Source: Desulfosporosinus sp. Sb-LF
Lineage (GTDB): Bacteria; Bacillota; Desulfitobacteriia; Desulfitobacteriales; Desulfitobacteriaceae
Length of the DNA: 64,000 nucleotides
Reading direction: 5' to 3'
Assembly (NCBI RefSeq): GCF_004766055.1
Contig: NZ_SPQR01000003.1
Coordinates: 62,001-126,000, forward strand
Below, piece after piece: positions 9,243 through 64,000 of this stretch. The position numbers and the translations under genes are program-made. Position 1 is the stretch's first letter. Every line of letters begins with the position of its first letter. Under the pieces are notes generated by a model. That model was not told where the DNA came from. It ran no database searches and saw only the letters and a list, made by a program, of their open reading frames with translations.

Positions 9243-9283
9243 ACCATCGCCCATTATTAGCCTTATCAAAAAAGGCTAAGTTC

Positions 9284-9450
9284 AATATTACAGGCAGGTC
9301 TTCTGGCTCAAAGTTCATCATCGCCGTACGCCTTCCCAGCAAATGCCAGTGGCCAGTGTACAGGACTCCCTCTTCACAGTGGTGGGTCCGCTCAGGATTA
9401 ATATACTACCTGATTCCCTATTCTCCCCAATTGGGGCACCTGTAATAATT
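9284..9450 (-). promoter_or_regulatory. Cobalamin (B12) riboswitch
   Basis: On the minus strand the element opens with TTATTACAGGTGCC, contains GGGAATCAGGT, GCGGACCCACCACTGTGAAGAGGGAG, then CCACTGGCATTTGCTGGGAAGGCG, and closes with the B12 box AGCCAGAAGACCTGCC followed by TGTAATA. The ends pair as P1 (TTATTACAGG with CCTGTAATA). Order and spacing match the cobalamin riboswitch class. It faces the 73-residue ORF, the UbiD-family gene and hyuAB, not a recognisable cobalamin biosynthesis or transport gene. Confidence 0.93.
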
Positions 9451-9583
9451 CCTTATTACCAATCCACCATGAATTAAGAGTGGATTATGTGTTTTTTATA
9501 TGTTTCGACGCCATTATTAAATTCCCTGCTTCTAATCATGAACTAGGGTAAATTCTTTTTCGATGAGTTTCGTTGATAGACAG

Positions 9584-39430: not shown

Positions 39431-39461
39431 AACCCTTCGTCTCTGATTGAGACGAAGGGTT
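39431..39461 (-). terminator. T-box regulated terminator before leuA
   Basis: AACCCTTCGTCTC and GAGACGAAGGGTT arms with a short loop, followed on the minus strand by TATTTATTTT, 28 bases before the leuA start. The 5' arm competes with the T-box antiterminator. Confidence 0.88.
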
Positions 39462-39785
39462 AGTTCGCGGTACCACTCAAGTTAACAGCAAATAGCTGTC
39501 TTCTCTGCAGATACGGGAGTAAATCAACAATCGTGGTTCGTTGTTCGTAATTCGACCCAAAAAATAACGTCACCGATCGAACTCCTTACATCGAACAACA
39601 ATCTTTGAGTTATCCGATATCTCCTTCCTTTTAACGGTGGAAGCTCCGTCCGAGCCTACTTTCAACTACGATTTCGGTCAGCTACTCGAGGAAGAGTTCC
39701 AATTCTATTCCGTTACTGCCTTTCACCAACCAGCAGCTCTCTAGAACGGAAAACGCAACTGTACTATTCCCTCTCATCGTCATTT
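39431..39785 (-). promoter_or_regulatory. T-box leader of leuA (probably leucine-specific)
   Basis: On the minus strand GATGAGAGGGAATAGTA opens stem I. The T-box core GAGTGGTACCGCGAAC (about 39479-39464) contains the TGGNACCGCG motif that pairs with the tRNA acceptor end. In stem I the 3' side reads GGAACTCTTCCTCGAG; pairing of GAGGG with CCTC puts CTC (Leu) in the specifier position, which agrees with the gene controlled. Specifier choice is inference. Confidence 0.9.
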
Positions 39786-40346
39786 TAGCATTTTTTTATA
39801 TCTTACACTACTTTCGCTAATTGTCAAGTGTAACAGCGATTTGTTCTCTTCATTTCTGTGATTTTCAAAAGCAAAATCGAGACGCTTTTTGCCGGCCTAA
39901 ATAGACTCCTCGGCACTAGTCAGGTAATTTCGAAACACTGTAGTCCAAGGACAATTCTATGAAATCTATATCATTCGTTCTAATAAAATATTAGCTAGAA
40001 GAATGCCCAAAACCTGTAGAACGATTTTCGCATGAAGTCTAATAGTTTTTCTCTGGTTTGCCAGGAAATTTACTAAAACGACAAACCCCTAACCCACCAC
40101 AAATAATCAAAAGCATGATGGTTATATTAATAACAGGGTCACCAACGTATGACTAGAAAAATTTCCAATATATGGGGATATGAATGAATTATTATACTCT
40201 TTTTGACTACATGGCAATAAGAGTGTGTAAGCTCCGATTTATAGCATTCAAATTAAAGTCCCCCGCTAAGTAATATCTAATTATTCGGGTAACGCTTTCA
40301 GGAATACCAAATAAAATGGGATGTCAAATTTAAGGAGGCGGAATTC
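39786..40346. other. 560-bp gap holding a transporter fossil
   Basis: Between the leuA leader and the orphan gene at 40347. The part 39966-40175 is a decayed TrkH-like gene on the minus strand (separate entry). Nothing else recognised. Confidence 0.5.
39966..40175 (-). pseudogene. Fossil of a TrkH/KtrB-type potassium uptake channel
   Basis: Minus-strand reading in three frames reconstructs a continuous Trk-like segment: PYIGNFSSHTLV, then after a frameshift DPVINITIMLLIICGGLG, then after another frameshift FVVLVNFLANQRKTIRLHAK followed by IVLQVLGILLANILLERMI and a stop. TrkH/KtrB proteins have the order NF..DPVVN...LIIxGGLGFxVLxDL....RxLSLHTKxVL at this place. Only about 70 of 440 residues remain and two frameshifts are needed, so it is a dead fragment. 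Confidence 0.72.
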
Positions 40347-50933: not shown

Positions 50934-50981
50934 AAAGGAAAGATTAGATCAACAAATTTACATTCGCACAAAAGATTAATG

Positions 50982-51021
50982 GAGCCCTTATCAAGAGGGA
51001 TTGAACTCTTGATAAGGGCTC
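50982..51021. terminator. Convergent terminator
   Basis: Perfect 16-bp arms GAGCCCTTATCAAGAG/CTCTTGATAAGGGCTC with an 8-base loop, then TTTC on the plus strand; between cotJC-like and aroF. Confidence 0.82.
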
Positions 51022-51057
51022 TTTCAAATTTTTTATCACCTTCGCCTCATCTGTAAG

Positions 51058-52387: not shown

Positions 52388-52652
52388 AAAAAACTCCTCA
52401 TCCCTGAAGGGACGAGAAGTTCAATCTCGCGTTACCACCCGACTTTGGCCAAAGGGCCACTCGACAAAGGTACGGGAATAATATCCGATACCCCCTTCCT
52501 GTTAACGGTGAAGAACCGTCCTAGCCTACTTGATAACGTTCAGCCGGCAGCTCGGGAGGGAACTTCAGCTAATACCACACATAGAAGAGTTTTCAGTCGT
52601 GACTCTTCCTCCCTGAAAGGTAATAAATAGCGTACTTTTCTCCGTCTTCGCT
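52388..52652 (-). promoter_or_regulatory. T-box leader of aroF, full module (probably phenylalanine-specific)
   Basis: Minus strand: stem I opens with GAAGACGGAGAAAAGTACGC. The 3' side reads GCTGAAGTTCCCTCCCGAGC, where pairing of CGGAG with CTCCCG leaves TTC (Phe) as candidate specifier. The T-box core is GGGTGGTAACGCGAG, and the terminator is CTTCTCGTCCC...GGGATGAGGAGTTTTTT (52421-52388). Phe specificity fits an aromatic-pathway entry enzyme but is inferred. Confidence 0.88.
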
Positions 52653-52739
52653 TTTAATAATTAAGTTATTTAAATTATAACAGTATTAATTAATTTGTCA
52701 ACCGGATATAACAGATGCTAAGAGATTTTACCGTACAAG

Positions 52740-53489: not shown

Positions 53490-53495
53490 CAAAGC

Positions 53496-53547
53496 AACGG
53501 CGCTTTGGAATTACTCGGAAACAAACGAGTTTTTCCAGTGCGCCGTT
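53496..53547 (+). terminator. Three-tier leader hairpin with T-run (attenuator or terminator)
   Basis: AACGGCGC/GCGCCGTT outer stem, GGAA/TTCC middle and ACTCG/CGAGT inner stem, followed by CTTTTATT, 56 bases before the ATG of the large downstream gene. There is no plus-strand gene ahead of it within 2.5 kb, so it is more likely part of the leader of 53603 than a terminator for an upstream gene. Confidence 0.55.
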
Positions 53548-53602
53548 CTTTTATTGCACCTTATAAGAAATCCTTAACCATGAAATACGAGGAGGTATCA
53601 TT

Positions 53603-56206
53603 ATGGAACTCTCCCAAAAAGTGAGTACAGGTTTTAATACATTAGATCACGTGATTCAACATCTTAGAATGGGAGATAATGTTGTTTTTCAGGTTAAGGA
53701 TATTGAGGTGTATAAAAGATTTGTCAATGCGTTTATTGAGCAAAAGACTAGTTCACATAGAAAGATTATTTATATTCGTTTTGCACAACATGCCCCGCTT
53801 ATTGCAAATATAGCTACTGTAGAAATCTTTTCCGTTGATGCAGAGAATGGATTTGAGGAGTTTTGCTCTCAGATCCACGAGAAAATTACTCAAGAAGGGC
53901 GAGACGTTTTCTATATTTTTGATTGCTTATCTGAACTATTGGATCGTTGGGCTACAGATTCGATGATCGGAAATTTTTTCAAGGTCACCTGTCCCTATCT
54001 TTTTGAACTGAATACGATAGCCTATTTTGCGACCTACAAGAATCGTAACTCGTTCCATACCACAGCTGTGATTCGTGATACAACTCAGGTACTGTTTGAT
54101 GTTTATGAAGCCAACGGCACGACCTATGTGCACCCTTTAAAAGTCTGGAATCGCTATACTTCTACTCTATTCTTGCCTCATGTTGTCCAAAATAATCAAT
54201 TTACACCTGTTACCAGCAGTGGAGAAGTGGCTGCTCTTTATTCTCAATACGGAGAAGATGATGAAAACCCTGAACGGGACCTTGATTATTGGGACCGTCT
54301 ATTTTTAAAGGCTGGAGAACTCCTCTCCTCCTCAGCAAATTTAACTCAAGTTAAAGAACGCATTCATCAATTATCCAGGATATTCTTGACCCGCGATGAG
54401 CGAATTCTCAAACTAATTCATGAACATTTTTCCCTCCAAGATATCTTGTCCATTAAGTCACGTTTGATTGGCTCTGGGTTTATCGGTGGCAAAGCGGTAG
54501 GGATGTTACTCGCTCGAAAGATTTTAATCCAAGCGTCTGAAACATGGAAAGATATCCTAGAGCCTCATGATTCATTTTATATTGGGTCAGATGTCTTTTA
54601 CTCCTTTCTTGTCGACAATAATTTGTGGAAACTTAAGATGGAACAACGCAGAGCACCAAAATACTATTTCGAAAAGGCCTCTTCACTTCGGGATAAAATA
54701 CTCCAAGGACAGTTTAGCGACGTAATAAAATGCAAATTTATTAGAATGCTGGAGTATTTCGGCCAGTCCCCGATTATTGTGCGGTCTAGTAGTCTTTTAG
54801 AAGATGGGTTCGGCAATGCCTTTCCGGGCAAATACGAAAGTATTTTCTGTATCAACCAGGGTACCCTCGAAGAAAGGTACCAGCTCTTTGCGGAGGCTGT
54901 TCGACAAGTCTTTGCCAGTACATTAAGTGAAGAAGCGCTAACCTATCGTGAAAAGCATGGCTTAACCAGTACGGAAGAACAAATGGCTCTTCTCGTACAA
55001 AGAGTGTCCGGATCCAATAAACAGGACTATTTCTTTCCTGATGTTGCCGGGGTGGGTTTTTCTTACAACACCTACATTTGGGATACTCAAATGAATCCAA
55101 ACGCAGGAATGGTACGGCTTGTTATCGGATTGGGTACAAGAGCCGTCAACAGGCTCGAAGGGGACTATGCTAGGATTGCTGCTTTAGACCGCCCCCTCTC
55201 TATACCCTGTGATGGACTTCAAAGTTTTAAAGCCTTTTCACAGCAGAAAATGGACGTACTCAACATCCAAAACAATAGTCAAGAGTGCCTTTCGATTCAA
55301 GATTTATTAGATCAACAAGTCGATTTGCATCAAGCAATGATTGCTGAACGAGACTTTAAAACTGAACAAAGGATGAAACAACTTGGCCTGAGCTGTAAGG
55401 AATCCTGGGTTTTTAGTTTTAACCCGTTATTTTCTAAAACAGATCTTTCTCAAACCTTTTCTAAACTTCTCAATACATTAGAGGCAGCCTATTGCCATCC
55501 TATCGATATTGAATTCACTGTAAACTTCGGAAGCAATGGTCATTATATAATTAACCTATTACAATGTAGACCCTTACAGGTTCAGGGTCCCAAAGAACGG
55601 GTTGAGTTCCCTCACGAATTCCCACTGAATCAAATCCTTTTTAAGAGCAATGGTAATTTCATGGGGGGAAATGTTTACACGACAATTCACAAAGTCATCA
55701 TAGTAGACCCAGATGCCTATAACCTACTTAGCCAATCAGAGAAATACGAGGTTGCTAGAACCGTGGGGAGGCTCAATAAGCAAATTCATAAAGAGAGCAC
55801 CAAAGCACTTCTCCTTGGTCCCGGAAGATGGGGATCACGCATTCCCTCTTTAGGTGTACCCGTTGCTTTTGCAGAGATAGATCGCATTTCAATTCTAGGC
55901 GAGATCGGATACCGTCACTCTGGGTTTTTTCCCGATGTATCGTTTGGAACCCATTTTTTCCAGGACATGATTGAAAGTGAGATATTCTACCTTGCACTCT
56001 TTCCCGAAAAGCAAGATACCCTCTATCAATTAGATTTGCTGGAGAACATCGCTCAGAGATTTCTTACCCTCCCTACAGAAATGTCCCAGCTTCAAGAAGT
56101 TGTAAAAGTGTATGACTTTGAACCTGGGAAATATAGTTTACAATTGATTTCAGATATTAACAAACAAGAGATTCAATGCTTTTATCGTTCAAATGGCATT
56201 TCTTAA
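53603..56206 (+). CDS. PEP/pyruvate-binding (PPDK_N) protein with N-terminal degenerate RecA/KaiC-like domain
   Basis: 867 residues, cytoplasmic. Residues about 6-210 look like a KaiC/RecA fold: STGFNTLDHVIQHLRMGDNVVFQV at the place of the usual pre-P-loop strand, but the GxxGxGKT loop is replaced by KDIEVYKRF. A Walker B-like strand DVFYIFDCLSELLDRW is kept. Residues about 290-680 form an ATP-grasp PPDK_N domain: GFIGGKAVGMLLARKIL, PIIVRSSSLLEDGFGNAFPGKYESIF, GVGFSYN and the end YIINLLQCRPLQ. The phosphohistidine swivel domain and PEP-binding barrel of PEP synthase are missing. Residues 690-867 (LLLGPGRWGSRIPSLGVPVAF) are an unassigned domain. Role unknown. AGGAGGTATCATT precedes the ATG. 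Confidence 0.85.
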   Translation: MELSQKVSTGFNTLDHVIQHLRMGDNVVFQVKDIEVYKRFVNAFIEQKTSSHRKIIYIRFAQHAPLIANIATVEIFSVDAENGFEEFCSQIHEKITQEGRDVFYIFDCLSELLDRWATDSMIGNFFKVTCPYLFELNTIAYFATYKNRNSFHTTAVIRDTTQVLFDVYEANGTTYVHPLKVWNRYTSTLFLPHVVQNNQFTPVTSSGEVAALYSQYGEDDENPERDLDYWDRLFLKAGELLSSSANLTQVKERIHQLSRIFLTRDERILKLIHEHFSLQDILSIKSRLIGSGFIGGKAVGMLLARKILIQASETWKDILEPHDSFYIGSDVFYSFLVDNNLWKLKMEQRRAPKYYFEKASSLRDKILQGQFSDVIKCKFIRMLEYFGQSPIIVRSSSLLEDGFGNAFPGKYESIFCINQGTLEERYQLFAEAVRQVFASTLSEEALTYREKHGLTSTEEQMALLVQRVSGSNKQDYFFPDVAGVGFSYNTYIWDTQMNPNAGMVRLVIGLGTRAVNRLEGDYARIAALDRPLSIPCDGLQSFKAFSQQKMDVLNIQNNSQECLSIQDLLDQQVDLHQAMIAERDFKTEQRMKQLGLSCKESWVFSFNPLFSKTDLSQTFSKLLNTLEAAYCHPIDIEFTVNFGSNGHYIINLLQCRPLQVQGPKERVEFPHEFPLNQILFKSNGNFMGGNVYTTIHKVIIVDPDAYNLLSQSEKYEVARTVGRLNKQIHKESTKALLLGPGRWGSRIPSLGVPVAFAEIDRISILGEIGYRHSGFFPDVSFGTHFFQDMIESEIFYLALFPEKQDTLYQLDLLENIAQRFLTLPTEMSQLQEVVKVYDFEPGKYSLQLISDINKQEIQCFYRSNGIS

Positions 56207-56325: not shown

Positions 56326-56898
56326 TTATTCATACTTCTTGATGATCTCTTCCGCGACTATGACTTGGGAAATTCGCAAGTCCATGGCCCTTTTTTGAAT
56401 GAGGCGAAAGGCTTGTGGCTCGCTCATATTTAACTTTTCCACAAGGGTCCATTTGGCTTGTTCAAGGATCTTCCGCTCATCGATCCGCTTCTTTAGGGTA
56501 TCACGCTCATTTTTTAATTGTGTCATCGAATTCCGTACTGAAAGTGCAAAACGTGCAGTTTGAAGCAATGTTAAGCGGTTGATTGGTTTAGGAAGAATCA
56601 AAGCACCTACTTTTTCAAGGCTAAATTGCATATTAAGCAAATGCTCGGGCCTTGCGATCACCACGATTCCAGCGGACGTTTTATCATGGGTATCAAAAAC
56701 CAAATCCGTTCCCTGTTCATCGGGTAGCGGAGTGCTTATAATAACCAAATCCAGTAGGGTGTTGAAAAAATTTCGACGCGCCTCATTGGCTGAATGAGCG
56801 CAGTTTACCGGATAAAAACCTTCTTTGATGAGCATGGTCTGCATGCTGCTCGCGACTTCAGCCTTCCCACAGACGATAAGAACACTCCCTGCGCTCAC
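56326..56898 (-). CDS. ANTAR-domain RNA-binding antitermination regulator
   Basis: 190 residues. The N-terminal receiver-like domain (about 6-118) starts SVLIVCGKAEVASSMQTMLIKEGF. The phosphoacceptor region reads DLVIISTPLPDEQGTDLV, so it has no canonical Asp in the usual VLxDxxMP setting and may be phosphorylation-independent. A coiled coil (NSMTQLKNERDTLKKRIDERKILEQAK) leads to the ANTAR three-helix domain LVEKLNMSEPQAFRLIQKRAMDLRISQVIVAEEIIKKYE. ANTAR proteins bind paired hexaloop hairpins and prevent termination. The GTG at 56898 has AAAGGGGTG at correct distance; the GTG at 56907 overlaps that site. Last gene of the nitrogen operon, 32 bp after glnA. Confidence 0.9.
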   Translation of the reverse strand: MSAGSVLIVCGKAEVASSMQTMLIKEGFYPVNCAHSANEARRNFFNTLLDLVIISTPLPDEQGTDLVFDTHDKTSAGIVVIARPEHLLNMQFSLEKVGALILPKPINRLTLLQTARFALSVRNSMTQLKNERDTLKKRIDERKILEQAKWTLVEKLNMSEPQAFRLIQKRAMDLRISQVIVAEEIIKKYE

Positions 56899-56930
56899 TA
56901 CAATCACCCCTTTGAGCAGGGTAACCTCAT

Positions 56931-58259
56931 TTAATAGGTTTTGAGATACTTTTCAATCTCCCAGGAATGAATCGAGTTATCGTAGGCTTCCCATTCCAAA
57001 GTCTTTGCTGCTAAGTATTTATTAAACGTATGCTCACCAAGAGTCGAATGAATCAAGGGGTCTTTCTTCATCTCTTCAAGCGCTAAGAAAAGGTTTGAGG
57101 GTAGCCTCTCGAGTTTAAGGTCTTTCTCCTGTTCTGACGTTAAGTTGTAAATATTAACATTAATCGGATCAGCCAGTGGTAAATGATTTTTTAATCCCTC
57201 AAGCCCAGCCTCTAAGACTAACGCTAAGGTCAAATAAGGATTACAGGTCGGATCCGGACTTCTGAGTTCAAGCCTTGTTGCTTCTCCCCGGGGTGCAGGG
57301 ACGCGAAGCAAGGGACTTCGGTTCATATGAGACCATGCGATATGCACCGGGGCTTCAAAACCTGATTTTAATCGTTTATAGGAATTCACGAGGGGATTGG
57401 CGATGGCCGTAATTCCTTTGATATGACTCAACAACCCTGCCGTAAAATGCTTGGCAGTTTCCGATATATCATTTTCAATCTCGTCCTGTTTAAAGAGGTT
57501 GATCCCATTTCGGGTTAGAGACATATTGATATGCATCCCCGAACCATTGACACCGGGAAGCGGCTTGGGCATAAAGGTCGCATGAAGACCATTGCGCTGC
57601 GCAATGCTCTTGACAACCATTTTAAAGGTCATAATATTATCAGCCGCAGTAAGAGCATCCGTATATTTGAAATCGATTTCATGCTGCCCCGCCGCTGTTT
57701 CATGATGCGACGCTTCGATTTCAAACCCCATTTCTTCTAAAATCATACAAATCTCACGACGGGTGTTTTCCCCTTGGTCGATGGGAGCCAGATCGCAATA
57801 ACTAGCTGAATCATGGGTAATCGTCGTTGGCTGACCTTCGTCATCGTTGTAAAACAAAAAGAACTCACATTCTGGGCCGACTTGGAAAGTATAGCCCAGG
57901 TCTTCTGCCTTTTTCAACGTTCGTTTCAGTATAAAACGGGGATCCCCCTCAAATTGCGATCCGTCATGGTTTTTAATATCGCAAATAAGTCTAACGACCT
58001 TGCCCTGCTGTGGCCTCCAGGGAATGATCGCGAAAGTATCGGGATCCGGAAAAAGAAACATGTCGGACGCTTCAACACCTGTGAATCCTGCAACGGCTGA
58101 GCCATCAAACATGACTCCGTTTTCGAAAGCATTGGCAAGCTGTTTATCAGTAATCGCTATGTTTTTCATTCTGCCGGAAATATCCGTAAACTGCAAACGA
58201 ATAAAGCGAACATCATTTTCCCTTACAAACTTCAGACAATCTTCTTTTGAAAAATGCAA
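56931..58259 (-). CDS. glnA: Glutamine synthetase, type I
   Basis: 442 residues from the TTG at 58259, which has AAAGGAGAGTACCCAA before it; in-frame codons upstream lack a site and would overlap the previous gene. It makes glutamine from glutamate, ammonia and ATP. Blocks: FIRLQFTDISGRMKNIAI, MFDGSAVAGF (GS signature), FQVGPECEFFLF (metal Glu), ASHHETAAGQHEIDFKY, NGLHATFMPKPLPGVNGSGMHINMSL (ATP site), and NPLVNSYKRLKSGFEAPVHIAWSHMNRSPLLRVP. No adenylylation Tyr loop is apparent, as in the Firmicute GSI-alpha group. Operon with the split glutamate synthase genes upstream. Confidence 0.95.
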   Translation of the reverse strand: MHFSKEDCLKFVRENDVRFIRLQFTDISGRMKNIAITDKQLANAFENGVMFDGSAVAGFTGVEASDMFLFPDPDTFAIIPWRPQQGKVVRLICDIKNHDGSQFEGDPRFILKRTLKKAEDLGYTFQVGPECEFFLFYNDDEGQPTTITHDSASYCDLAPIDQGENTRREICMILEEMGFEIEASHHETAAGQHEIDFKYTDALTAADNIMTFKMVVKSIAQRNGLHATFMPKPLPGVNGSGMHINMSLTRNGINLFKQDEIENDISETAKHFTAGLLSHIKGITAIANPLVNSYKRLKSGFEAPVHIAWSHMNRSPLLRVPAPRGEATRLELRSPDPTCNPYLTLALVLEAGLEGLKNHLPLADPINVNIYNLTSEQEKDLKLERLPSNLFLALEEMKKDPLIHSTLGEHTFNKYLAAKTLEWEAYDNSIHSWEIEKYLKTY

Positions 58260-58333
58260 TTGGGTACTCTCCTTTCTTATTAGCTCATTATATCCTGGAA
58301 TGAGTCCCATATGAAGGCATAGTTCATGAGTGC

Positions 58334-59083
58334 TTACCAGCCACAATAAAGATTGCCATAGGGTCTTTTATTATAAGGGATCAACTTGGAAAAGGGTTTA
58401 GCAAGAATCTCCTCAGTATTTCCGCCAAAATATTCAACATAGTCTTTAACATAGTGCTCAAGCTTTTCTTCATCATCCTGCGATAGTTCAACTACTTTGA
58501 CTTCTTTGCCCAGTTTGTGATCTTCCACTTCACCGCGGATATACATGATTCCCCCATGCATCCCTGTACCGCAATAAGAGCCCACAATTTCTTCATGCTC
58601 TTCAAGTCCTAGACCAAGAACGACAATCACTCCACCGGCCATATATTCCCCTAAGAAATCTCCTACTTTTCCTCCCAGGATAATCGTTGGAATCTTCTCT
58701 TGATATTCCTTCATATGAATTCCAACCCGATATCCACCGTTATCCCGAATGAAGATTTTTCCACCCCGCATAGCATACCCTACAGTATCTCCTGAACTGC
58801 CATGAACCACGATTTTCCCGTCATTCATAGTGTTCCCAATACTGTCTTGAGTATTTCCTTCAACATAAAGTTCTAAGCCATTCATATAGGCGGCCATATC
58901 ATTCCCAGGGGTTCCTTTTAATGTCAAACGTGCTTTACCAGTGATTCCATCCCCAATGTAGCGTTGTCCGTTCACATTTTTAACCACGATATCTTCAGAG
59001 CCAGCCGCAAGTTCTTCACGAATCTTGCTGTTCAGTTGCCTATAATAGAGCCCTTTAGCATTGAGTACAATCATCTGTTTCAC
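58334..59083 (-). CDS. Glutamate synthase GXGXG-domain subunit
   Basis: 249 residues forming the right-handed beta-helix domain that in large GltB closes the protein and guides ammonia. The glycine repeats are clear: GDGITGKARLTLKGTPGNDMAAYMNG, VEGNTQDSIGNTMNDGKIVVHGSSGDTVGYAMRGGKIFIRDNGGYRVG, YMAGGVIVVLG and GTGMHGGIMYIRG. It is a separate chain in archaeal-type split glutamate synthases. Its ATG overlaps the stop of the FAD-oxidoreductase gene by 4 bases. Confidence 0.92.
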   Translation of the reverse strand: MKQMIVLNAKGLYYRQLNSKIREELAAGSEDIVVKNVNGQRYIGDGITGKARLTLKGTPGNDMAAYMNGLELYVEGNTQDSIGNTMNDGKIVVHGSSGDTVGYAMRGGKIFIRDNGGYRVGIHMKEYQEKIPTIILGGKVGDFLGEYMAGGVIVVLGLGLEEHEEIVGSYCGTGMHGGIMYIRGEVEDHKLGKEVKVVELSQDDEEKLEHYVKDYVEYFGGNTEEILAKPFSKLIPYNKRPYGNLYCGW

Positions 59084-60342
59084 TTCCTTAGGGTAAGTCT
59101 TTGGCTGCGCAGTTCCTGTGGAAAATGGATATATCCAAAATCATCTTTCAAAAGATGCTCTTGAAAAGATGTTACATCGACTTCTTGGTCCATGAGTCCC
59201 GTGAGAATTCCTGCCCGATCCATGGTATTTAAAGCAATATACCCAACAAGCTTTCCCGCACGCAAAACAATCTTTTTATAGCTTTGCTTGGCCTGATCTT
59301 CTTGGATATATTCTTGGAAATCAGGGGCATTCGGTTTGATAATACCTGCTGTGAGCATCGGAAGGTCAAAAAAACCGATGGCATTCATAGCAAATCCGCC
59401 CAGGTATTCGGAGCTTCCTCCAGCCATATTCACCCCTGCAGTAAATCCCTGCTTATAGGCATTTGGCAGAATCGGCAACACACGGTTCTCTTGATAGATT
59501 TTATCATATCCTTCGGAGACATCGCCCGCTGCGTAGACATCGTCTACACTCGTTGCCATCTGTGGGCTAATCACAATACCCTGATTCAACTTGATTTTCG
59601 TCTCCCGGACAAGATCCAGATTTGGTCTGACCCCAATTGCCAGGATAACCCGATCACAGTCTAATTCTTCTCCGTTCTGCAAGCGAACACCAGTTACCTT
59701 GCCATTCTCACCCAAGATCTGGGCTACTGTATTATTTAATTGGAATTTCACGCCTTGTTCCTCGAGATGATTCTGAACGATTTGAGCCGATGCTTCATCA
59801 AGAATAGCGCTTAAAATGCGGTTTGAGAGTTCAGCAATCGTCACAGTGGCTTCTCTCTTAACCAAGGCCTCAGTTGCCTTGAGGCCGATGAGCCCCGCTC
59901 CGATCACTACAACTCTAATTCCAGGGAAAAGTTCTTTTTCTAATGCTTTCACATCATCCCAGGTTAAAAAGGTGGAAACCCCAGAATACTCTCTGCCCGG
60001 GATGGGGGGAACGATGGGTTTTCCGCCGGTTGCAACTAACAAACGATCATACTGAACCTTCTCCCCCGAAGAAAGTTCGACATTCTTCTCTTCAAGCTTT
60101 AAGGCTTGAACCTCAGTCCCGAGATGAACATCCACTTGTAGGCGTTCATAAAAATCGGGATCTCGATAATACATCTTTTCTGGCGTTACTTTACCCGAAA
60201 GATAATAGGAAATAAGAGGACGGGAATAGGCCGGATAAGGCTCTTTCGAAAAAAGCGCGATTTTCCCTTCACGATCAACACTACGAATTCCTTCTACCGC
60301 GCCAACTGCTGCAGCGGAATTTCCGATGATCACATAATCCAT
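59080..60342 (-). CDS. FAD/NAD(P)-dependent oxidoreductase of the split glutamate synthase
   Basis: 420 residues of the pyridine nucleotide-disulfide reductase-like family. FAD site YVIIGNSAAAVGAVEGI (residues 3-19), the conserved PAYSRPLISYYLSGK, NAD(P)-site RVVVIGAGLIGLKATEALVKR near 144-164, and second FAD motif TSVDDVYAAGDVSEGYD near 262-278. It likely passes electrons from NAD(P)H to the ferredoxin-like subunit and glutamate synthase core. GGAGGAGTAGTAGC precedes the ATG, four bases after the ferredoxin gene stop. Confidence 0.9.
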   Translation of the reverse strand: MDYVIIGNSAAAVGAVEGIRSVDREGKIALFSKEPYPAYSRPLISYYLSGKVTPEKMYYRDPDFYERLQVDVHLGTEVQALKLEEKNVELSSGEKVQYDRLLVATGGKPIVPPIPGREYSGVSTFLTWDDVKALEKELFPGIRVVVIGAGLIGLKATEALVKREATVTIAELSNRILSAILDEASAQIVQNHLEEQGVKFQLNNTVAQILGENGKVTGVRLQNGEELDCDRVILAIGVRPNLDLVRETKIKLNQGIVISPQMATSVDDVYAAGDVSEGYDKIYQENRVLPILPNAYKQGFTAGVNMAGGSSEYLGGFAMNAIGFFDLPMLTAGIIKPNAPDFQEYIQEDQAKQSYKKIVLRAGKLVGYIALNTMDRAGILTGLMDQEVDVTSFQEHLLKDDFGYIHFPQELRSQRLTLRK

Positions 60343-60346
60343 GCTA

Positions 60347-60829
60347 CTACTCCTCCTCTCCTAAAATACTATCCATAAACTGGAGTGCACGATTAGGACA
60401 ATTCTGAACGCAAACCGGCACACTGGGCGCATCCAAGTCATCTGCTCCGCTAGAACAAAGGTCACATTTTGAGGCAACTTTGTGCCCTTGATTATCTCGC
60501 CGAATCGCACCGAACGGACACGCAAGAATACAGGTCCAACACCCCACACATCGGTCTTCATCATTACGTACAATTCCCGTAACCAAATCTTTCTGCATGG
60601 CTCCAGTGATACATGCCTTGGTACACGGTGCTTCATCACAATGCCGACATTGTAACGCAAACGAAATTGATAAATTGTCTTCGACCAAAATTCTCGGTAC
60701 GGGCTTCGTCTTCTGCTTTAAATAGGCTTTGACAATGTCCTTCGGATACTCTGAATGGGCCGCTGCACAATACACTTCACAAAGTTTACAGCCCACACAC
60801 ACTTCTTCTCGGGCATAAACACGTTTCAT
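60347..60829 (-). CDS. 4Fe-4S ferredoxin subunit
   Basis: 160-residue protein with four clusters of cysteines of the HycB/DmsB-like type: CVGCKLCEVYCAAAHSEYP near 11-29, CRHCDEAPCTKACITGAM near 61-78, CVGCWTCILACPFGAI near 93-108, and CDLCSSGADDLDAPSVPVCVQNCPNRAL near 117-144. About four cubanes are possible. It lies between the amidotransferase/synthase genes and the FAD oxidoreductase and should transfer electrons between them. ATG with GAGGATTTCCG. Confidence 0.92.
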   Translation of the reverse strand: MKRVYAREEVCVGCKLCEVYCAAAHSEYPKDIVKAYLKQKTKPVPRILVEDNLSISFALQCRHCDEAPCTKACITGAMQKDLVTGIVRNDEDRCVGCWTCILACPFGAIRRDNQGHKVASKCDLCSSGADDLDAPSVPVCVQNCPNRALQFMDSILGEEE

Positions 60830-60973
60830 CGGAAATCCTCACTTCCTCTCTCCTGAGCTTGGCAAACTGCTTGCTCTCCGTCCAAACAAAATCAGTCTAC
60901 CTGAGCTGTCCTAGCTATCTCATTTATCCGCACAATCCCAATTATTTCAGCTTTCTCAAACTACCTGTTTTAT

Positions 60974-62476
60974 CTACTCACCCGCAGCCAGGACTCCCAA
61001 AATATTTAACTCACGATCCGATAATCCGATTCCCCGAAGCATCAATCGATTTCCTCGTAAGCTCTCAATGGCGTTAATACCCATACCACCGAGGAGTTCT
61101 TTAACCTCATGCTCCCAAGCCCTAATTAGATTCGTGACTCTTTCTGCGCCAATCTCGGGATTCAAGCGTTTGACCAACTCAGGCCTTTGTGTTGCAATCC
61201 CCCAATTACATTTTCCGGTATAACATTTCTGGCACATATGACAGCCGAGGGCCAGAACAGCTGCACTAGCAACATAGACAGCATCGGCGCCCAACGCAAT
61301 CGCCTTGACAATATCCGAGCTATTCCGGATACTTCCCCCGACAACGAGTGACACCTGATTCCGAATTCCTTCTTCGCGTAGACGTGTATCTACTGCGGCT
61401 AAAGCGAGTTCAATCGGAATTCCAACCGAGTCTCGAGTCCGAAGCGGTGCTGCCCCAGTTCCTCCACGAAAACCGTCAATGGCAATGATATCGGCACCTG
61501 CCCGGGCAATCCCGGAAGCAATCGCGGAGACATTATGCACAGCGGCGATCTTTACAATGACAGGCTTCTCATAATTTGTGGCTTCCTTTAAGGAGAAAAT
61601 AAGTTGGGTCAAATCCTCGATAGAATAGATGTCATGATGGGGTGCTGGTGAAATCGCATCCGAGCGTTCTGGAATCATACGAGTGCGCGATACTTCCACT
61701 CCGACTTTCTCTCCTGGTAAATGTCCACCGATTCCAGGTTTAGCACCTTGCCCTATTTTTATTTCGATAGCTACACCCGCATTCAAATACTTTGTATGAA
61801 CACCAAAGCGACCGGATGCAACTTGAACAATCGTATTCTTACCATATCGGTAAAGGTCTTCATGAAGGCCTCCCTCCCCGGTATTATATAAAATACCCAG
61901 GGTTTCTGCCGCTTGAGCTAAGGACTTAGCCACATTAAGACTAACAGAACCGAAGGACATCGCCGAGAACATGATCGGGACTTCCAGCTCAAGCTGAGGT
62001 GGCAGTGGCTCAACAAGCTTACCATTTTCTACTTGAATTCGCTCGGGTTTCCGACCCAAAAAGGTTTTCAGCTCCATGGGTTCTCTGAGTGGGTCAATGG
62101 AGGGGTTCGTCACTTGACTGGCGTTGAGCAGCAAATGGTCCCAATAGATTGGGTAAGGGCGATCCGTCCCCATCCCTGTCAGCAAAATTCCTCCAGTTTC
62201 CGCTTGCCTATAGATTGCTTTCATCGTGCTCGGTGTCCAATTAGCATTCTCACGAAATTCAAGTGGAAACTTCCGAATGGAGAGCGCATGGGTGGGACAC
62301 ATAGTCACACACCGATGACAATTTACACACTGGATGTCATCTGAGACGACTTTTTCTTCTTCTGCATCCCAGCGATGAGCCTCATTAGCACATTGCCTTA
62401 CACATACCTGGCAGTTAATGCAACGATCTTTATTTCGTTCAATAAGAAAGTCCGGCATATTCATACTGAGTGCCAT
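60974..62476 (-). CDS. gltB: Glutamate synthase core (GltB2-like FMN/Fe-S domain) with N-terminal ferredoxin domain
   Basis: 500 residues. An N-terminal 2[4Fe-4S] ferredoxin (CINCQVCVRQCANEAH, CVNCHRCVTMCPTHAL; residues 18-65) is joined to the FMN-binding glutamate synthase barrel: PIMFSAMSFGSVSLNVAKSLAQAAE, NTGEGGLHEDL, QGAKPGIGGHLPGEKV, SPAPHHDIYSIEDL, ADIIAIDGFRGGTGAAPL and the 3Fe-4S type CHMCQKCYTGKCNWGIATQ. It combines 2-oxoglutarate with ammonia from glutamine to give glutamate. The ATG lies inside the amidotransferase gene (38-base overlap), so the two are coupled. Confidence 0.93.
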   Translation of the reverse strand: MALSMNMPDFLIERNKDRCINCQVCVRQCANEAHRWDAEEEKVVSDDIQCVNCHRCVTMCPTHALSIRKFPLEFRENANWTPSTMKAIYRQAETGGILLTGMGTDRPYPIYWDHLLLNASQVTNPSIDPLREPMELKTFLGRKPERIQVENGKLVEPLPPQLELEVPIMFSAMSFGSVSLNVAKSLAQAAETLGILYNTGEGGLHEDLYRYGKNTIVQVASGRFGVHTKYLNAGVAIEIKIGQGAKPGIGGHLPGEKVGVEVSRTRMIPERSDAISPAPHHDIYSIEDLTQLIFSLKEATNYEKPVIVKIAAVHNVSAIASGIARAGADIIAIDGFRGGTGAAPLRTRDSVGIPIELALAAVDTRLREEGIRNQVSLVVGGSIRNSSDIVKAIALGADAVYVASAAVLALGCHMCQKCYTGKCNWGIATQRPELVKRLNPEIGAERVTNLIRAWEHEVKELLGGMGINAIESLRGNRLMLRGIGLSDRELNILGVLAAGE

Positions 62477-63569
62477 ACCCTTGTTCTCCCTTCTTTTCGA
62501 GTGTCGCGATTACAGGTTCTCCACCACGGGGGGCCCAGATCTTTTCAGGATCAGGACAGATTTCCCGGATGGCTGACTCTTCAGAAGCAAGATAGAGGAA
62601 ATCCCCTTTCGTTGCCGCGACCATCGATCGTAATTTTAGTCGGTCATTGAGTGCGATCAAACCTTGGCTTGATCCTAGAATAATGGAAAAAGGTCCGTTC
62701 ATTAATAAATTCCCATACATGGAGCGCACAGCCTTGAAAAGAACTTGTTTCTCTGGACTCATTCGTTCTATGTCTTTCCAAAACGGCGCCGCTAGGGTCG
62801 CAATCGCCACATCCATCGGTAACTTCTGCTTTCGGACTAGAAAGTCAAAAGCATACGTAATCGCTTCAGTGTCAGTTTGCATGGATAGTTTATAGCCATA
62901 CATCTCTAAAAAGCGTCGGTTTGCGCCGTAAGATGAAATTTCACCGTTATGCACGATGGACCAGTCAAGCAGGGTGAAAGGATGTGCTCCACCCCACCAC
63001 CCTGGGGTATTGGTCGGGAATCGTCCATGCGCCGTCCAGCTATATCCTTGATAGTTCTCTAGGCAAAAATACTCTCCGATATCCTCAGGGTATCCCACCC
63101 CTTTAAAGGCTCCCATATTTTTTCCGCTTGAAACAACAAACGCTCCCTTAAATTCAGAGTTAATAAACATTACACTCCGCACAATGAACTCGTCCTCATT
63201 TTCCTCTTCCAACAAAAAGTTGGGTTTAGGTCGGACAAAATAACGCCATGCTAAAGGAGGGTTTTTAATGCCTCGAGTTTTCCGTGTTGGGATTTCACCG
63301 CTTTCTGCAACATGGAAAAAGCGATTGAGATAATCCTCTGTTTGTTCTTTTCCCTCTGTCCCTTCATAGTACAGATGAAAAGCATAGTAGTCTGCATACT
63401 CTGGATAAATACCATAGGCGGCAAATCCTCCACCTAAGCCATTAGAACGGTCATGCATCAAGGCAATCGACTGAATTATATCTTCTCCGGAAAAAACCTG
63501 TCCGCTGCGATTGATAATCCCACTGATCGCACACCCGGACGGAATCCGAACTTCACCTTCTCTAAGCAT
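62439..63569 (-). CDS. Class-II glutamine amidotransferase subunit of the split glutamate synthase
   Basis: 376 residues with an Ntn-hydrolase fold releasing ammonia from glutamine. The likely nucleophile is Cys13 in RIPSGCAISGIINRSG, so a 12-residue propeptide must be removed to free the N-terminal Cys. Other contacts: YSWTAHGRFPTNTPGWWGGAHPFTLLDWSIVHNGEISSYGANRRFLE near 172-217 and QTDTEAITYAFDFLV near 226 (substrate Asp). AAAGGAGAGACAGAG precedes the ATG. First gene of the seven-gene nitrogen operon and directly behind the candidate ANTAR leader. Confidence 0.92.
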   Translation of the reverse strand: MLREGEVRIPSGCAISGIINRSGQVFSGEDIIQSIALMHDRSNGLGGGFAAYGIYPEYADYYAFHLYYEGTEGKEQTEDYLNRFFHVAESGEIPTRKTRGIKNPPLAWRYFVRPKPNFLLEEENEDEFIVRSVMFINSEFKGAFVVSSGKNMGAFKGVGYPEDIGEYFCLENYQGYSWTAHGRFPTNTPGWWGGAHPFTLLDWSIVHNGEISSYGANRRFLEMYGYKLSMQTDTEAITYAFDFLVRKQKLPMDVAIATLAAPFWKDIERMSPEKQVLFKAVRSMYGNLLMNGPFSIILGSSQGLIALNDRLKLRSMVAATKGDFLYLASEESAIREICPDPEKIWAPRGGEPVIATLEKKGEQGYGTQYEYAGLSY

Positions 63570-63589: not shown

Positions 63590-63660
63590 TAACACAAAAA
63601 ACTCGTTTATGAATTTTTGGGCAATCTCTCCCGCATAACTACATCACTATGGTTATGCAA
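63590..63660 (-). promoter_or_regulatory. P2 hairpin (loop AGUGAU) and candidate terminator of the ANTAR leader
   Basis: Minus strand: GCAUAACCAU-AGUGAU-GUAGUUAUGC (63658-63633) has nine paired positions, one mismatch and a hexaloop with A at 1 and G at 4. After it GUUAUG can instead pair with CAUAAAC across a GGG/CCC mini-stem, ending at GAGUUUUUU (63606-63596). The two folds share the GUUAUG strand and exclude each other. Confidence 0.6.
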
Positions 63661-63680
63661 ATCCACCCAAGTACCTCTTA

Positions 63681-63700
63681 TTCCCCTTTCACTAAAGAAA
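63681..63700 (-). promoter_or_regulatory. P1 hairpin (loop AGUGAA) of the ANTAR leader
   Basis: Minus strand: UUUCUUU-AGUGAA-AGGGGAA forms seven continuous pairs (three G-U) closed by a hexaloop with A at 1 and G at 4. It sits 22 bases before P2, the arrangement expected of an ANTAR dual-hairpin target. A longer but non-hexaloop fold with the preceding CCUUUUUCA is also possible. Confidence 0.55.
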
Positions 63701-63704
63701 ATGA

Positions 63705-63763
63705 AAAAGGCGTCCTTAAAAAGATGCACTTATATCAAGTACAAAATTCTAATGAGCGCCTTT
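63705..63763. terminator. Bidirectional terminator-like hairpin
   Basis: AAAGGCG and CGCCTTTTT arms around about 45 bases containing a smaller GUACUU/AAGUGC hairpin. Probably ends the partial gene at the right edge, or belongs to the leader of the nitrogen operon. Confidence 0.5.
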
Positions 63764-63910
63764 GCTCTATTCATTATTAGTTCGTACATTTAAAGTAACA
63801 TAAAGACTAGCTTACATTCAACTGTTTTATACCATGTATACAATATTTAAATTTAAATCTCCATTTTATGAAGAGAATTATAATCAAACAATACCAATCC
63901 ATGTCCTTCT
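63764..63910. other. A+T-rich gap upstream of the nitrogen operon leader
   Basis: Should hold the operon promoter. TTGAAT with an 18-base spacer to TACTTT on the minus strand (about 63815-63786) is a weak candidate. No other feature seen. Confidence 0.3.
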
Positions 63911-64000
63911 TTATAACCTCGGGGCAACTGGTTCAGCCTCTAAAGATAATGTAGCCAAAACACCCCCTTCAATTCCTAAGGCAAATTCTATTAAGGCATG
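63911..64000 (-). CDS. C-terminal end of an unidentified protein, cut by the window edge
   Basis: Minus strand reads HALIEFALGIEGGVLATLSLEAEPVAPRL and a TAA at 63913-63911. The 29 residues are open to the window edge and look protein-like, and a terminator hairpin follows at 63763. Too short to assign. Confidence 0.4.
   Translation of the reverse strand, partial: HALIEFALGIEGGVLATLSLEAEPVAPRL

Follow-up and report, generated by a model that had tools for sequence, protein, structure and literature searches.

A probable single-hexaloop ANTAR attenuator before the GOGAT-glutamine synthetase operon of Desulfosporosinus sp. Sb-LF

Introduction

The closest described counterparts of the leader reported here are those of E. 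faecalis eut, K. oxytoca nasF and P. aeruginosa amiE, with the ANTAR proteins EutV, NasR and AmiR (PMC3369931). Our leader shares with them an RNA hexaloop with A at its first and G at its fourth position (A1/G4), a 3′ part of the hairpin that also forms a terminator, an encoded ANTAR protein and an association with nitrogen genes. A1 and G4 are both required in E. faecalis (PMC3369931), and in vitro SELEX with NasR selected a C:G closing pair together with A1 and G4 (PMC7496416). ANTAR control of glutamate-synthase, glutamine-synthetase, ammonium-transporter and nitrogenase leaders has been published, including in Desulfotomaculum (PMC3369931), and the glutamate-synthase leaders of Desulfotomaculum reducens have already been reported as ANTAR targets (Ramesh et al. 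2012, PMC3369931).

In the EutV case, two hexaloops (P1 and P2) and their spacing are required for antitermination (PMC3369931, PMC8934654). The EutV-RNA structure shows that the dimer contacts one hexaloop at a time, and isolated P1 and P2 each bind, which redefined the minimal ANTAR site as a single hexaloop; both hexaloops are nevertheless needed there, whereas the natural leaders described below appear single (PMC8934654). Actinobacterial ANTAR RNAs likewise have A1/G4 hexaloops and an ANTAR partner, but they are dual stem-loops with linkers of 2-25 nt, and translational regulation has also been proposed for them (PMC8164766).

Here we analyse a 64,000-nt stretch of Desulfosporosinus sp. 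Sb-LF (the window; contig NZ_SPQR01000003.1, positions 62,001 to 126,000). Unlike the eut, nasF and amiE duals (PMC3369931), its GOGAT-glutamine synthetase (GS) leader appears to have one hexaloop, close behind a likely promoter, in a group of leaders where P1 is not generally enriched, and unlike in those systems its regulator is a pseudo-receiver protein linked to glutamine synthetase.

Results

A probable one-hexaloop ANTAR attenuator lies upstream of gltA

The initial annotation had proposed that an ANTAR-type attenuator precedes the GOGAT-GS operon and had drawn it as a dual hairpin at 63590-63700. An attenuator of this type does exist, but it lies just upstream, at 63703-63769 on the minus strand (Table 1), and it appears to have one C:G-closed hexaloop rather than two; we found no proper second one. 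The hairpin is identical in three congeners that have the operon (L004, L005 and L006). It overlaps a strong intrinsic terminator (dG -21.4, z -4.8, with 0 of 200 shuffles as good), and the two structures are therefore mutually exclusive. Forcing the hexaloop hairpin in the window leader costs ~6 kcal/mol, so that the terminator is the predicted default without a binder.

The window hexaloop matches both the NasR SELEX result (PMC7496416) and the E. faecalis A1/G4 rule (PMC3369931). Compared with dual-hexaloop ANTAR RNAs, the leader has the A1/G4 hexaloop on a stem of at least 3 bp, the C:G closure, the overlapping terminator and an ANTAR protein in the genome, and lacks a second, upstream A1/G4 hexaloop at a linker of about 2-25 nt. 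An Rfam scan returned nothing relevant in the leader, either at the gathering score or with the E limit raised to 10, and a search of plasmid DNA for leader similarity gave no match.

A likely promoter precedes the hairpin, as judged from conservation of TTGAAW...TATGTTA in orthologous and gltB leaders; it was not picked up by a simple sigma-70 scan. The segment AATATTGTATAC, which lies just before the presumed -35 at ~63836-63848 (minus strand), is conserved in the window and in L004-L006 and is inverted in L009 and L010; it resembles an operator to which a DNA-binding regulator would bind.

Table 1. Positions of the leader elements, operon genes and second attenuator in the window
Feature	Position	Strand	Remarks
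Likely promoter TTGAAT, 18 nt, TG-T-TACTTT (extended -10)	63792-63821	-	start expected near 63784
Weak candidate P1, UUUA[AAUGUA]CGAA	63781-63794	-	top pair broken; overlaps presumed start point
Antiterminator hairpin GAGC[AAAGGC]GCTC	63754-63767	-	hexaloop 63758-63763, A1 and G4, C:G closing pair
Intrinsic terminator AAAGGCG...CGCCUUUUU	63703-63763	-	5′ arm is the loop and 3′ arm of the hexaloop hairpin
GOGAT glutamine-amidotransferase subunit, first operon gene (gltA)	62439-63569	-	Pfam GATase_2
GOGAT FMN-domain subunit, ferredoxin-like, pyridine-nucleotide oxidoreductase and GXGXG subunit genes	58334-62476	-	Pfam
Type I glutamine synthetase	56931-58346	-	TIGR00653, 523.8 bits, cut-off 429
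ANTAR protein with pseudo-receiver, proposed attenuator reader	56326-56907	-	PF03861
PPDK_N-domain gene downstream of second attenuator	53603-56206	+	PF01326; convergent with ANTAR gene
Second attenuator CAAAGC[AACGGC]GCTTTG, overlapping terminator AACGGCGC...GCGCCGTT-CTTTT	about 53490-53552	+	loop 53496-53501

Both structures covary across related leaders

We collected 95 leaders of the same first gene, gltA, 15 of them from related genomes and 80 from named ones. Hairpins of the form C[AANGRN]G with 4 bp or more are present in 25 of the 95, whereas 100 dinucleotide-shuffle rounds gave 1.16 on average and never more than 4; the comparison is somewhat favourable, as we chose the loop form with a few leaders already in view. 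Loops of another composition are less frequent. Across 14 leaders, 10 of the 15 terminator pairs show two-sided changes; in the 14 attenuators the terminator has 38 two-sided cells (13.8 when shuffled) and the antiterminator 8 (1.9 when shuffled). Both structures thus covary beyond shuffled and slid controls. The 100% pairing of the antiterminator follows from the selection of seeds, while its two-sided changes do not.

The attenuators form a nitrogen regulon

A covariance model, R1, was built on these 14 attenuators, whose seeds were picked by the motif. The gltA leader, itself a model seed, is the top match in its own genome (E 1.1e-9) and reaches E 1.7e-11 in a window-only search. It is followed in the genome by an amtB leader (4.3e-7, also a seed) and by two non-seeds, the leaders of a second amtB (6.7e-6) and of glutamine synthetase III (GSIII; 5.6e-4). 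These are the four matches at E<=6e-4, and the next best stands at 0.07. A restricted hairpin pattern finds 8 genomic places, among which the only leaders are those of gltA and amtB.

Within the window, R1 also matches a second attenuator (window-only E 5e-4; dG -34.1, z -7.5), which precedes a PPDK_N-domain gene; the same gene with the same leader is found in four other genomes of the order (L223, L224, L231 and L242). The attenuators thus form a nitrogen regulon comprising the GOGAT operon, two amtB genes, glutamine synthetase III and the PPDK_N-domain gene. Two candidates were set aside: the R1 match at 50972-51024 is a plain terminator without a C[A..G..]G hexaloop, and a genome search with the pattern CAAAGGCG was uninformative, its frequency being the same as that of the reversed control.

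In a scan of the order, 44 of 60 genomes have R1 matches at E<=0.01. About 79 of the 109 genes downstream of the attenuators, a set that includes a handful of seeds and in which congeneric leaders are not independent, belong to clusters of glutamine synthetase (29), ammonium transporter (25), GOGAT (21) and P-II (4). The 109 also include seven PPDK_N-domain genes and single nifH, eutA and asparagine-synthase-like genes.

The matches co-occur with ANTAR proteins. In a 299-genome sample of the phylum, R1 matches at E<=1e-4 occur in 32 genomes spread over 29 genera, and all 32 encode an ANTAR protein, compared with 113 of the 267 genomes without a match and 145 of the 299 overall (Fisher p 1.2e-11, uncorrected for kinship). 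At E<=1e-3 in the order, a match is present in 37 of 50 genomes with an ANTAR protein and in 1 of 10 without; the genome behind this single exception is 85% complete.

A second hexaloop is not generally enriched

We looked for an upstream hexaloop by a criterion like that of the literature (A1/G4, at least 3 bp, linker up to ~25). In the order, 10 of 84 attenuators have such a hairpin, while shuffled sequence gives 7.3+-2.5 (5.8+-2.5 with a longer shuffled stretch). With stems of at least 4 bp the count is 7 of 84, somewhat above the shuffled 2.5+-1.7, and five of these seven belong to one leader family, that of the window's own leader. C:G-closed P1 candidates of at least 4 bp number 0 of 84 in the order and 4 of 26 in the phylum set. 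Elsewhere in the phylum, convincing dual hexaloops were detected (L297 and L301), and the test is thus able to find second hexaloops. A second hexaloop downstream, inside the terminator, is not enriched either.

In eight leaders (L175, L179, L195, L216, L220, L285, L291 and L293), promoters with at most 2 mismatches to TTGACA-N16-18-TATAAT end 9-10 bases before the stem, so that transcription would begin only a few bases ahead of the hairpin, with no space for a P1. The window leader is a less clean case, since its promoter is inferred and overlaps a degenerate P1 candidate. Taken as a group, the attenuators of the order appear to be a single-hexaloop variant of ANTAR attenuation, for which binding and antitermination are predicted.

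The last gene of the operon encodes a pseudo-receiver ANTAR protein

The operon was correctly annotated as closing with an ANTAR gene: 56326-56907 ends a run of seven same-strand, tightly packed genes. The ANTAR gene of Clostridium glnA-nitR-gltAB also adjoins GS and GOGAT genes, a likeness in gene arrangement. An ANTAR gene falls inside the retrieved flanking sequence at 27 of the 80 named gltA loci, usually in the same orientation.

The encoded protein is homologous to Rv1626 and EutV over its length, and its C-terminal ANTAR domain (PF03861) scores 59.6 bits against a gathering score of 27.3. Its receiver, in contrast, falls below the Response_reg gathering score. It reads LVIISTPLP where the EutV and Rv1626 comparison gives LVLMDIQMP and LVIMDVKMP, with Ser at the phospho-Asp, so that it lacks the phospho-acceptor Asp of REC-ANTAR regulators. 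Operon-type orthologues have Ser or Asn at this position (IISTPLPDE region), and the loss of the acidic pocket is common to them and the window protein. Phosphorylation by a kinase is therefore unlikely, and a ligand or protein partner is the more probable input. By analogy with AmiR, the signal probably reaches the protein in this way (PMC3369931); from gene order, one may speculate that the partner is glutamine synthetase or P-II. At the EutV RNA-contact positions, K143, the aromatic residue at 164, M172 and R175 are kept, and K147, N173 and R177 are changed to Q, D and S.

The locus has a history that bears on its regulation. Several congeners without GOGAT genes have kept the attenuator ~300 bases before glutamine synthetase, and in four of them (L158, L159, L162 and L167) decayed remnants of the GXGXG gene lie between the two; over 192 bases, the DNA of the L159 remnant is 79% identical to window 58277-58467. 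In GOGAT-less congeners an operon-type ANTAR gene follows after ~2 kb, in the same orientation and on the same contig (for example in G020 contig 18, G023 contig 33, G019 contig 21, and G017). The attenuator-GS-ANTAR unit has thus outlived the deletion of GOGAT, which fits autoregulation. Because the ANTAR gene is also the last in an attenuator-led GOGAT-GS operon, an autoregulatory loop is probable. This much survives of the self-reinforcing loop originally suggested; the leader element on which that loop had been placed does not.

Alternative readings of the leader

The dual hairpin first placed at 63590-63700 (minus strand) is a very improbable ANTAR target and is already largely refuted. 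The letters of two A1/G4 hexaloops 22 bases apart are present as described, with P1, UUUCUUU[AGUGAA]AGGGGAA, at 63700-63681 and P2, GCAUAACCAU[AGUGAU]GUAGUUAUGC, at 63658-63633; both loops can be drawn, and the P2 stem is partly conserved in congeners. P1, however, is at chance level (dG -4.0, z -0.76, with an equally good fold in 51 of 200 shuffles), and a longer fold of the leader has its 3′ half paired with CCUUUUUCAUU. P2 does fold as a hairpin (z -3.1), but its MFE loop is the tetraloop AGUG; drawn as a hexaloop it is left with a top helix of only 2 bp that is closed by U.G and sits on a C.A mismatch. The proposed P1 and P2 are closed by U:A and U:G across their 22-nt linker. In L004, L005 and L006 the aligned P2 loops are GAGGGA, UAUGGA and GAUGGA, all missing A1, and P1 is absent. 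Each 1.75 kb of strand in the window yields roughly one such pair of A..G.. hexaloop hairpins (at least 3 bp and at least 2 bp, within 22 nt), and a pair resembling P1 and P2 is therefore not unusual.

The terminator that had been said to share a P2 strand and to end in a U6 tract (63601-63596) fares no better. P2 and the AAAAAUUC/GAGUUUUU hairpin are both present at once in the MFE of 63590-63658 and are thus not mutually exclusive, and the poly-U is not kept in the same three congeners. A terminator scan found no minus-strand terminator in 63590-63700, though it also misses the one at 63703-63763 because its loop limit is 8 bases. As a separate conserved RNA, 63590-63700 offers only 2 compensated pairs across four species, too little to name. 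Between the attenuator and the gltA start, at 63610-63670 (minus strand), four congeners partly retain an outer stem, UUGGG/CCCAA, that encloses a hairpin, together with AGAUUGCC.

Three further readings concern the element at 63703-63769. The leader could be a canonical dual one, with a start further upstream and the weak candidate of Table 1 as P1, 13 nt from the hairpin at 63754-63767 as P2. UUUA[ARUGUA]UAAA, or a 3-bp form of it, recurs with A1 and G4 in six congeneric gltA and GS leaders at linkers of 11-18 nt, and duals with a C:G-closed P1 exist elsewhere in the phylum, as in L297 and L301 and also in L070 and L088. We still regard this as unlikely: the candidate stem is broken in the window and in L005, is closed by A-U instead of C:G, overlaps the presumed -10 and start point, and is missing in L187 (AAUCUA) and in gltB leaders with the same promoter, and upstream hexaloops are not enriched across attenuators at >=3 bp. 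A little less likely still is that the attenuator is read mainly by the second of the two ANTAR proteins encoded by this genome (L001, contig 7, 193 aa). Some congeners with amtB or GSIII attenuators have only one ANTAR gene, which in G009 is of the L001 type; attenuators are also found, however, in genomes with the operon-type ANTAR only (G017, G033, G062 and G063), and it is the operon-type protein that is linked to gltA and GS leaders. That the element is the ordinary terminator of an upstream gene or sRNA, its loop conserved for some other reason, seems improbable. A same-strand reading frame does seem to end upstream near 63912, and the terminator is strong, but many genera carry the same element ahead of unrelated nitrogen genes, frequently right after a promoter, and the phylum matches at E<=1e-4 all fall in ANTAR genomes.

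Discussion

We consider a single-hexaloop ANTAR switch before the GOGAT-GS-ANTAR operon to be the probable explanation of the locus as a whole. Transcription would begin shortly before GAGC[AAAGGC]GCUC. In the default state, the hexaloop and the 3′ arm of its hairpin would pair with CGCCUUUUU, and RNA polymerase would terminate at ~63704, before gltA. Under nitrogen limitation, the operon's ANTAR protein, possibly helped by L001, would bind the single A1/G4 hexaloop as the hairpin emerges and hold it; the terminator would thereby be blocked and the GOGAT, GS and ANTAR genes transcribed. The same switch would act before the two amtB genes, glutamine synthetase III and the PPDK_N-domain gene, making up a nitrogen regulon. 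The input to the ANTAR protein is probably a ligand or protein partner, as for AmiR, and not a kinase. In this scheme the two exclusive structures with their conservation, the regulon, the co-occurrence with ANTAR proteins and the missing enrichment of a second hexaloop come from computation, and ANTAR binding, antitermination, the direction of the nitrogen response and the signal are inferred. EutV antitermination depends on two hexaloops and the distance between them, so one hexaloop might bind the protein and still fail to antiterminate.

In a search of the open-access literature we found no paper on single-hexaloop ANTAR leaders. As far as the searchable literature shows, what is new is that the natural attenuators of this group are mostly single-hexaloop and often lie directly behind the promoter. 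We lean towards a broader view in which one-hexaloop ANTAR attenuators at or near the mRNA 5′ end are widespread and are read by GS-linked pseudo-receiver ANTAR proteins that sense nitrogen without phosphorylation. If this is true, the dual hexaloop is no requirement of ANTAR antitermination. In the accepted model an ANTAR dimer must visit two spaced hexaloops, whereas many leaders here appear to fit only one, and they make the need for a second hexaloop directly testable. Covariance searches built on the dual motif may overlook a large share of the nitrogen regulon in these anaerobes, for which the attenuator is a candidate global switch of ammonium uptake and glutamine/glutamate synthesis.

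Other RNA elements were seen alongside the attenuators. Tandem hexaloop elements, the second just after the first terminator, occur in L175, L179, L195, L216 and L220 and in L169, L217 and L229, and include leaders before P-II/amtB genes and before a GntR-aminotransferase gene. In the window itself, Rfam identifies two T-box leaders and one cobalamin riboswitch, at 39445-39786, 52405-52657 and 9276-9458, all on the minus strand.
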